39,855 nucleotides of DNA from the NCBI GenBank assembly GCA_016191645.1, contig JACPVQ010000082.1, forward strand, positions 1 through 39,855, written 5' to 3'. Below, piece by piece: positions 17,454-39,855 of the stretch. Source of the stretch: Candidatus Solibacter usitatus. GTDB taxonomy: Bacteria; Acidobacteriota; Terriglobia; Bryobacterales; Bryobacteraceae. Numbering within the stretch: the stretch's first letter is position 1; the number at the start of each line of letters is the position of its first letter. Below the pieces are notes generated by a model. The model was not told the DNA's origin. It saw only the letters and a program-made list of their open reading frames with translations, and made no database searches. The position numbers were made by a program, and so were the translations under genes.

Positions 17454-17867
17454 ATGACCAGACTTGGAAGGCGATACCGGTTTTCCGCGGCGCACCGCCT
17501 GCATAGCCGGCAACTGAGCGCGGAAGAGAATCGCACGCTCTATGGAAAGTGCAACAACCCGTTTGGGCACGGGCACAACTATGTGCTGGAAGTGATTCTT
17601 CGCGGCGAGCCCGACGCGAAGACAGGGTTGCTGGCATCATTGGAACCATTGGATTTATTTGTCCACGAGACAGTGCTGGCGAAAATGGATCACCGTTATT
17701 TGAACGAGGAGGTGGAACCGTTCGACACAGTTCCACCGACGACTGAGAATCTGGCTATTGAGATTCGGTCTCGATTGGAACAGAATGGCGGCGGTTTTTT
17801 TAACAACGGCGTCTATCTGGATGGAGTTCGCATCTGGGAAACCAGACGCAATATGGTGGAGTATTAA
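17454..17867 (+). CDS. queD: 6-carboxy/6-pyruvoyl-tetrahydropterin synthase (QueD/PTPS family)
   Basis: The 137-residue product has all family residues: FSAAH (zinc His14), [18 protein letters not shown] (catalytic Cys33, zinc His39 and His41), MDHRYLN (Asp-His) and [10 protein letters not shown] with the pterin-anchoring Glu. It acts on 7,8-dihydroneopterin triphosphate made by FolE, which is encoded 220 bp downstream. The GKCNNPxGHGHNY pattern resembles tetrahydrobiopterin-type PTPS more than E. coli QueD (CGRLHGHS), so either queuosine or a biopterin-like product is possible. queA is about 6 kb away, which slightly favours queuosine. It is the second gene of a tandem duplication. Confidence 0.88.
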
Positions 17868-17890
17868 TTTGTACTACCATTCTCATTTTG

Positions 17891-18043
17891 CTGTGGGGCA
17901 GATCTCCAGATATGCGAGGCGGTCTCCAGACCGCCTCTGTTGGGAGTAATAACGCCGGGACGGCTGCAACGCAGCCGATGGCCTCTGGCGAGGCCATGCG
18001 GGATCTGGAGATCCCGCTGCAGGTCTGGAGACCTGCCCCACAG
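17891..18043. repeat. 153-bp modular hairpin array bounded by 11-bp perfect inverted repeats
   Basis: The ends are CTGTGGGGCAG (17891-17901) and its exact complement CTGCCCCACAG (18033-18043). Between them lie consecutive perfect stems: 17916-17937 (10 bp, loop CC), 17961-17977 (7 bp, loop AAC), 17978-17997 (8 bp, loop TGGC), 17998-18017 (9 bp, loop GG) and 18019-18036 (8 bp, loop GG). An imperfect one lies at 17899-17916. Three have the core TCTGGAGA or its complement TCTCCAGA at the centre with different but matched arms. A related copy lies at 39788-39855. It is not coding. It sits between the PTPS and folE genes, so it could be transcribed. It resembles a non-autonomous palindromic repeat (REP/BIME- or MITE-like); no transposase or clear target-site duplication is seen. 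Confidence 0.85.
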
Positions 18044-18077
18044 GTGGGGAGATTACAGAGAGTAGTAGTAGTCAGGT

Positions 18078-18088: not shown

Positions 18089-18703
18089 ATGAGACGCGCC
18101 AAAGCCGCGGTGAAAGTGATGACGCCCAAACGGGAGGCGGATCCGATTGCGCCCATGATCGACGGGATCCTTCGTGAACTGGGGGAGAACCCGGCGCGGG
18201 AGGGGCTGGCACTGACCCCGGAACGCTCCGGCAAAGCGCTGCGGTTTCTCACCAGCGGCTATCACGTGGAACTGGACCGCATTGTCAACGGCGCACTGTT
18301 CAATGTGGAATACGACGAGATGGTTGTAGTCCGGGACATCGAATTCTACAGTCTCTGTGAGCACCACATGTTGCCGTTCTTCGGCAAAATGCATGTTGCC
18401 TACCTGCCGAACAAACACGTCATTGGGCTGAGCAAGATCCCCCGCATCGTCGACATGTTCGCTCGCCGCTTGCAGGTGCAGGAGCGATTCACGCGTCAAG
18501 TCGCCGAAACGCTGCAAGAAGTCCTGGAGCCGCGCGGAGTGGCCGTAGTTTGTCAGGCGCGCCACTTCTGCATGATGATGCGCGGCGTGGAAAAGCAGCA
18601 TTCCGGCACGATGACCAGCGCCATGCTGGGAGCTTTCCGCACCCAAAAGGAAACGCGCGGCGAGTTCCTTTCCCTGTTATCTCAGCGGCAGAACGATTTC
18701 TGA
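18089..18703 (+). CDS. folE: GTP cyclohydrolase I
   Basis: The 204-residue, zinc-dependent type IA enzyme converts GTP to 7,8-dihydroneopterin triphosphate, the entry to folate, queuosine and biopterin. Zinc ligands are Cys90 and His93 ([12 protein letters not shown]) and Cys161 (HFCMMMRG). [23 protein letters not shown] and the C-terminal [12 protein letters not shown]-like segment are typical. ATG 18089 with TAGGAG upstream is chosen; the frame upstream is translated hairpin repeat. Same strand as the two PTPS genes, so a common pterin pathway is likely, but the 221-bp gap with the repeat may separate or modulate expression. Confidence 0.96.
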
Positions 18704-20648: not shown

Positions 20649-20677
20649 AAACGCCGCGCGGGTGAGGCGCGGCGTTT
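20649..20677 (-). terminator. Rho-independent terminator of the DUF1501 gene
   Basis: A perfect 11-bp stem (AAACGCCGCGC / GCGCGGCGTTT) with a 7-nt loop is followed on the minus strand by TTCTTTCC, making a T-rich tail. It lies 25 bp after the DUF1501 stop at 20702, ending that transcript. Confidence 0.8.
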
Positions 20678-39787: not shown

Positions 39788-39855
39788 TTTGGTGTGGGGC
39801 AGATCTCCAGATCCCGCATGGCCTCGCAAGAGGCCATCGGCTGCTTTGCAGCCGC
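39788..39855. repeat. Second, rearranged copy of the hairpin array, cut by the right window edge
   Basis: The end TGTGGGGCAG followed by ATCTCCAGAT (39793-39812) matches 17892-17911 exactly, with 24 of 25 bases identical when the preceding TTTG and one base are included. Then follow, as reverse complement of 17961-18002, the stems ATGGCCTC/GAGGCCAT (39818-39837, loop GCAA) and CGGCTGC/GCAGCCG (39838-39854, loop TTT). Stems are identical to those of the first copy while both loops differ. One hairpin unit of the first copy is missing. The element continues beyond the window. Confidence 0.8.

Follow-up and report, generated by a model that had tools for sequence, protein, structure and literature searches.

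What is the dense array of hairpins that lies between two pterin genes of Candidatus Solibacter usitatus, and what keeps its stems matched? We analysed a window of 39,855 nt, which is contig C75 of a host genome assembly of 4.47 Mb in 267 contigs with a completeness of 79%. The array is flanked upstream by a gene of the PTPS family (6-pyruvoyl tetrahydropterin synthase; 17454..17867, + strand) and downstream by folE (GTP cyclohydrolase I; 18089..18703, + strand), in agreement with a preliminary description, made from the sequence alone, that had placed it between two same-strand pterin genes. The hairpin array at 17893-18041 is real and far above chance, and we consider it very likely that the stretch is a non-autonomous REPIN-like mobile element, mobilised by a RAYT, whose ends are tandem hairpin doublets.

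The whole element, GTGGGG...CCCCAC, spans 17893..18041 on the + strand (149 bp in the window copy), half 1 being its left part and half 2 its right. On the left, a foot recognised by its sequence, GTGGG (17893..17897, +), a REP-type GT[AG]G tag identical at most family ends, is followed by outer hairpin A (GCAGATCT-CC-AGATaTGC; 17898..17915, +), inner hairpin B (GAGGCGGTCT-CC-AGACCGCCTC, 10 bp, loop 2; 17916..17937, +) and an interior spacer (17938..17960, +), the start of which is weakly similar to the leader ahead of the RAYT start codon in a gene-bearing copy on contig C62. Then come two internal hairpins, D (CGGCTGC-aac-GCAGCCG, 7 bp, loop 3; 17961..17977, +) and C (ATGGCCTC-tggc-GAGGCCAT, 8 bp, loop 4; 17978..17997, +), whose C62 counterparts lie 3' of the RAYT gene, that of D just 3' of the stop codon. 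The right end consists of inner hairpin B' (GCGGGATCT-GG-AGATCCCGC, 9 bp, loop 2; 17998..18017, +), outer hairpin A' (GCAGGTCT-GG-AGACCTGC, 8 bp, loop 2; 18019..18036, +) and the inverted foot CCCAC (18037..18041, - strand), assigned from its sequence and the family end pattern.

Hairpins B, D, C, B' and A' are the five perfect stems that had been listed within 17891-18043, and all are present at these positions; the list had overlooked a sixth, the left outer hairpin (GCAGATCTCCAGATATGC), which has one mismatch in the window copy and is perfect in most of 101 ends. The stems are indeed consecutive, but a gap is lacking only between the second, third and fourth, with the fifth beginning 1 nt later. 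The core attributed to three units is found in four hairpins, as TCTCCAGA/TCTGGAGA, and the hairpins at 17961-17977 and 17978-17997 are modules distinct from the core-bearing ones, with other loops. As for the 11-bp inverted terminal repeats, CTGTGGGGCAG and its complement do bound the stretch, but the outermost CT/AG belongs to the flank.

The DNA fold of the window element has a z of −10.28, with none of 200 shuffles folding equally well, and in the minimum-energy fold the two outer ends are paired with each other. Across the window, TCTGGAGA occurs 7 times against 0.82 expected. Elsewhere, at 20649-20677, a perfect stem of 11 bp closes a 7-nt loop; this hairpin is not related to the element and is possibly a terminator.

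We found that the element belongs to a distinct repeat family, and not to a pair of copies. A strand-specific end pattern (≤3 mismatches) is present at 211 + 215 = 426 places in the host genome, with 0/0 for the reversed-pattern control; since the assembly is incomplete, 426 ends is a lower bound. When the host genome was compared with itself by BLAST, 40 of 305 first-look candidates were scored, and all 40 were near full-length at 86-100% identity. Adjacent perfect-hairpin doublets numbered 52 in a genome sample of 323,086 bp, made up of bases from the starts of contigs C1-C20, versus 0, 0 and 0 in three first-order Markov nulls. Together with the BLAST loci and some additional stretches, this sample yielded 50 calls of two-ended copies, or 47 once three nested alternatives were dropped; of these, 23 are 153 bp long, which is the commonest length in a range of 116-173 bp. 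The borders GTGGGG...CCCCAC hold family-wide, with an outer inverted repeat of 23 bp, and the GTGGG foot stands before the outer hairpin, with GTGG separated from the stem by 1 nt. The family amounts to about two hundred copies of a small DNA element that is probably mobile.

Four modules describe these copies: A, the outer hairpin (GCAGRTCT-CC-AGAYCTGC with foot GTGGG); B, the inner hairpin (core RTCTCCAGAY, arms variable); C (ATGGCCTC-n4-GAGGCCAT); and D (CGGCTGC-n3-GCAGCCG). Half 1 is A+B and half 2 is A+B+C+D, and most of the complete copies have their core-bearing hairpins arranged as CC, CC, spacer, GG, GG. With two tandem hairpins at each end and further internal hairpins, the element does go beyond a simple REP dimer, as had been proposed. 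Of 107 non-redundant ends, 101 have a second hairpin core after the first, 97 of them in register, and 6 have no readable inner core. Modules have also been duplicated, with a 39-bp A+B unit present twice on C147 and three tandem hairpins on C32. Fusion by loss between two cores is seen in 3/107 ends (C32, C7 and the second window copy). The latter (39794..39855, +) ends at the contig end and consists of an A/B hybrid, then modules C and D; in the hybrid, a left outer arm is joined to a right inner arm at the core, so that outer and inner hairpins are fused.

The ends were picked by foot and outer hairpin alone and the inner hairpin was read afterwards, so inner-arm pairing played no part in finding them. 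Across the 97 ends in register, Watson-Crick pairing at the six inner positions beyond the core reaches 97.4%, compared with a mean of 60.0% and a maximum of 69.4% in 2000 shuffles of whole 3' arms, which upholds the earlier view that the stems co-vary. Inner stems are perfect in 86/97 ends, as 11 arm types, and imperfect over 6 bp in the other 11. Because the copies are related, arm types are the more cautious count than copies; with 27 distinct arm pairs counted once each, 92.6% of positions are paired against a shuffle maximum of 74.7%. In 44 elements, inner pairing within the own hairpin reaches 512/528 cells (97.0%), whereas pairing across the two ends of the same elements reaches 175/528 (33.1%), and the terminal-repeat view thus fails inside the outer hairpin, where the two ends do not match. 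At the R:Y position of the outer stem, own pairs are kept in 92/94 cases, and the two ends differ in state in 19/47 elements. High self-pairing with low cross-end pairing makes the single hairpin the pairing unit; on the low cross-end value we also rejected end-to-end pairing as the kept structure, even though the minimum-energy fold prefers it. We propose that the outer stems are almost fixed in sequence, and that the inner stems need just to pair.

Self-pairing of each hairpin would be produced either by recognition through a single-strand-binding protein or by template-switch copying. In the latter case palindromes are remade by intrastrand template switching (fold-back copying), and the arms are an unselected mutational product. 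This accounts for the self-pairing and for inner arms that vary but match, and E. coli offers a documented case of template switching associated with quasipalindromes (PMC7202029). It leaves the dispersal, the feet and the RAYT unexplained, however, and the three A/B hybrids (C32, C7 and window 39794) retain outer arms that are unmatched. We regard fold-back copying as a rather unlikely origin of the perfect palindromes, although it is compatible with a RAYT-mobilised element.

Next, we examined the orthologous locus, a comparison that had been suggested in the preliminary description. PTPS directly neighbours folE, with no element between them, in 9/11 congeneric genomes, where the spacer between the matched parts measures 10-47 nt versus 224 nt in the host, and the element was not found in these nine spacers. 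In the remaining two congeners, folE stands at a contig start in one and there is no match in the other, so that neither is informative. As the congeners are 74-77% identical in folE DNA, the empty site is not base-exact. The element sequence has matches in 3/61 genomes searched, with the host's own counted. Exact end-sequence copies are present, among the matches listed, in the MAG Terriglobia bacterium isolate SRVP_5, whose elements (L033-L036) have hairpins with different cores within one unit; in place of a full RAYT partner, that genome gave one weak match at 35% identity. The 17 plasmid matches among the matches listed cover just the folE part of the query.

These distributions bear on the possibility that the hairpins are kept for a role in RNA or transcription, acting between genes as a multi-stem stabiliser of mRNA, a terminator or an attenuator, with spread being secondary. 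The position of the window copy between two same-strand pterin genes and its strong RNA fold (z = −9.9) would fit such a role, and REPs elsewhere have been discussed in terms of post-transcriptional control (PMC3733652). Against it stand the few genomes with matches, the absence from the site in nine of eleven congeners, the lack of any Rfam match in the window and a transposase gene within the same ends, and we judge it very improbable.

That gene favours the RAYT-mobilised element. The host genome has two Y1_Tnp matches, one of which, RAYT1 (C62:72-650, 192 aa, GTG start), is enclosed as A-B-RAYT-D-C-B'-A', and is thus a RAYT/Y1 gene with linked copies of the kind that the preliminary description had proposed to look for. 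The RAYT1 element (L031:19-735, 717 bp) has the outer 23-bp inverted repeat around the gene. Y1_Tnp is the sole Pfam domain matched by RAYT1, and HxH and Tyr166 are invariant in an alignment of 18 RAYTs. RAYT1 passes the NCBIfam model REP_Tyr_transpos (83.1 bits, cut-off 80), whereas it fails the IS200/IS605 model NF033573 (30.1 bits, cut-off 55). The Y1 family in common, and a best solved-structure match by sequence to transposase 2xm3 (E 7e-4), which we take to be ISDra2 TnpA, could point to a derivative of an IS200/IS605-type single-strand insertion sequence, but the model scores and the inverted, GTGG-footed ends of the element, those of IS200/IS605 not being known as inverted, make such an origin hardly credible.

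With RAYT1 enclosed by the family's own hairpins, the 153-bp copies have the appearance of derivatives from which the gene was deleted. The mini-elements could be oriented in 38/47 cases, and in these the right interior aligns to the 3' interior of the RAYT1 element, around and 3' of the stop codon, with a mean score of 22.4 compared with 8.1 for shuffles (maximum 11; 4/38 at or below it). The alignment of the left interior is weaker, at 7.9 versus 4.3, and 9/38 do not exceed the shuffle maximum of 6. The assembly yielded a single intact copy of RAYT1, so that movement of the gene-bearing unit is no more than a possibility. Decayed RAYT pieces are present at C66:14475-14794 (L165), near a TCTCCAGA element. 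A second gene, RAYT2 (C167), has a mini-element with a different core, CTTCAG, directly upstream; its CTTCAG-core family has 14 ends, with two-hairpin ends also in the places read (C43, C143 and C171). Overall, the RAYT-linked mini-element family is real and well supported, and its mobility in trans is likely.

The flanks were inspected for traces of insertion. A T precedes the unit in 36/49 calls and an A follows it in 35/50 (calls including nested alternatives), and no target-site duplication of 2-9 bp exceeds shuffles in 46 copies. On this ground we rejected a MITE moved by a DDE transposase through terminal inverted repeats, which the 23-bp outer inverted repeats, the main size class and the look of internal deletion would suit; with a Y1/HUH RAYT as the enclosed gene and ends unlike each other inside the outer hairpin, that reading is extremely improbable.

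Other repeats adjoin the family. R2, a 66-bp tandem repeat starting with TGTACTACTA (L155:305-563 on C150; L156:218-452 on C147), is present at 115 places in the host genome, compared with 1 for the control, and often stops at the element: 20 of 29 listed matches on C1-C103 are within 7 nt of a known end, and at a further 4 another unit is next. A possible degenerate R2 start (TACTACCATTCTC; 17872..17884, +) flanks the window element, with a possible degenerate inverted R2 start as its partner (GAGAGTAGTAGTA; 18058..18070, - strand). R1, TTTGGACATTTCCCGAGTTTGT, lies directly at one end of eight copies (L003, L009, L011, L015, L018, L022, L028 and L030), and R3, with GATTCGTGGGCCC, is next to several other ends.

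Beyond the host, RAYT1 has a match in 203/299 genomes of the class searched. An automatic scan of 52 RAYT places (50 loci) detected adjacent pairs of hairpins on the upstream side of 19, the downstream side of 16 and both sides of 13. A tree was built of 53 RAYTs, 19 of which we labelled as two-hairpin by hand from the hairpin scan; 17 of these cluster in a single group of 22 (support 93/91, unstarred). The far half of the tree, 24 RAYTs set off by a weak split (72/94), contains none. Three scan-flagged loci were excluded by eye, their hairpins overlapping or standing 2 nt apart (L057, L066 and L116, the first two with GT[AG]G-like feet); including them gives 21/29 in the near half and 1/24 in the far half, versus 19 and 0. 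RAYT2 (L093), being outside the scan, was entered as single, and L053, L056 and L070 are imperfect doublets by reading. A single exact clade for two-hairpin ends was rejected, the label requiring 7 changes on the tree, compared with a shuffled mean of 15.6-15.8.

An end pattern with the core GTTGnnAAC (≤1 mismatch) is found at 162, 5 and 32 places in three other genomes, with controls at 0. At 24 fetched loci, a perfect adjacent inner hairpin is present in 28/33 end readings; one of the exceptions has a mismatch, and the remaining four all read the same double-foot hairpin. The inner arms vary among these ends as well (GGCGGG, AGCGGG, GCGCGA and GGCCGA). Two-hairpin ends with other cores thus accompany related RAYTs elsewhere in the class. 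Genome G182 contains GTGGGGCAGGTTGTAAACCTGCCCCAC, as expected from a central deletion between two outer hairpins; it resembles the 'double foot' REPs described in PMC6006769, yet it is a single hairpin and not a 153-bp unit.

The closest known systems are REPINs and GTAG-tagged REPs with their RAYTs, with which the host element has in common a high-copy inverted pair of tagged palindromes, a linked RAYT and a GT[AG]G foot (PMC3116915, PMC8266576). Compensatory changes are reported for REPIN spacers, and some RAYTs are reported to recognise the foot and loop of perfect palindromes (PMC3116915, PMC8266576). In contrast to E. coli REPs, which are described as requiring a stem bulge (PMC3116915, PMC8266576), the hairpins of the host element are perfect. 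For one RAYT, a GTGG foot led to cutting at CC and still at CA, less efficiently than the native foot, and a GTGG foot can accordingly serve as a guide (PMC8266576). REPINs as described usually have one hairpin per end, whereas the host element has two in tandem, with a common core and different stems; this second hairpin (101/107 ends) marks a REPIN-like variant, not a canonical REPIN. The host element further differs from REPINs in keeping 3' hairpins and in having a RAYT inside the unit.

RAYT-like genes between long inverted repeats are also known, as TIRtrons or TIRYTs, with one transposase group in Acidobacteria (PMC3733652), and RAYT1 between 23-bp terminal inverted repeats is similar. 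The same 2013 study mentioned 'double palindromic TIRs' beside RAYT-like genes, and also ends in which a degenerate REP is joined to another stem-loop (PMC3733652). The GGGGWSAS of some TIRs is unmatched, since the host ends read GGGGCAGR with C at position 5, and the TIRtron sections of PMC3733652, which we compared by description, make no mention of a common core whose arms vary freely but match. Of 26 TIRYTs, 20 belong to RAYT subclass 2.1, with an extra C-terminal domain, and 4 to arcs a and b of subclass 2.2, whose arcs a-c have GTGG feet (PMC6006769). RAYT1, with 192 aa and Y1_Tnp alone in Pfam, is without this extra domain, and its element is therefore not filed as a subclass 2.1 TIRtron; the GTGG foot is common to the host element and arcs a-c of subclass 2.2. 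Titles and abstract beginnings of the open papers searched describe no shared-core tandem hairpin ends, although the double-palindromic TIRs of PMC3733652 may be such. Double-palindromic repeats by RAYT-like genes are thus already known from that source, and the host family is a variant with unusual two-hairpin ends.

The likely parent of the window element is the 717-bp C62 copy, GTGGG-A-B-[RAYT1 gene]-D-C-B'-A'-CCCAC, from which the 153-bp copies would derive by loss of the gene with retention of both ends and the 3' hairpins. The RAYT would bind folded single-stranded DNA, recognise the foot and the conserved hairpin tip and cut at the foot, and the unit would move via single-stranded DNA, without target-site duplication. 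The two like hairpins at each end would presumably load two transposase protomers. We infer both that RAYT1 mobilises the gene-less copies in trans and where it cuts. A broader reading is possible, though we hold it only tentatively and think it somewhat doubtful: that in this clade the RAYT is not domesticated but sits inside a complete transposon, with tandem recognition hairpins, perhaps one per protomer, about 200 gene-deleted copies, and cores swapped between lineages as specificity modules, as the mixed-core elements of SRVP_5 would suggest.

The spread of REP-type elements is described as poorly understood (PMC8266576). Here, one genome holds an intact transposase-bearing copy, about two hundred copies that look like deletion derivatives, and a natural set of compensated stems, in which the fixed sequence (foot, outer stem and tip) is separable from the part that only pairs (the inner stem), making the recognition rule, and whether RAYT units move whole, directly testable in the host family.
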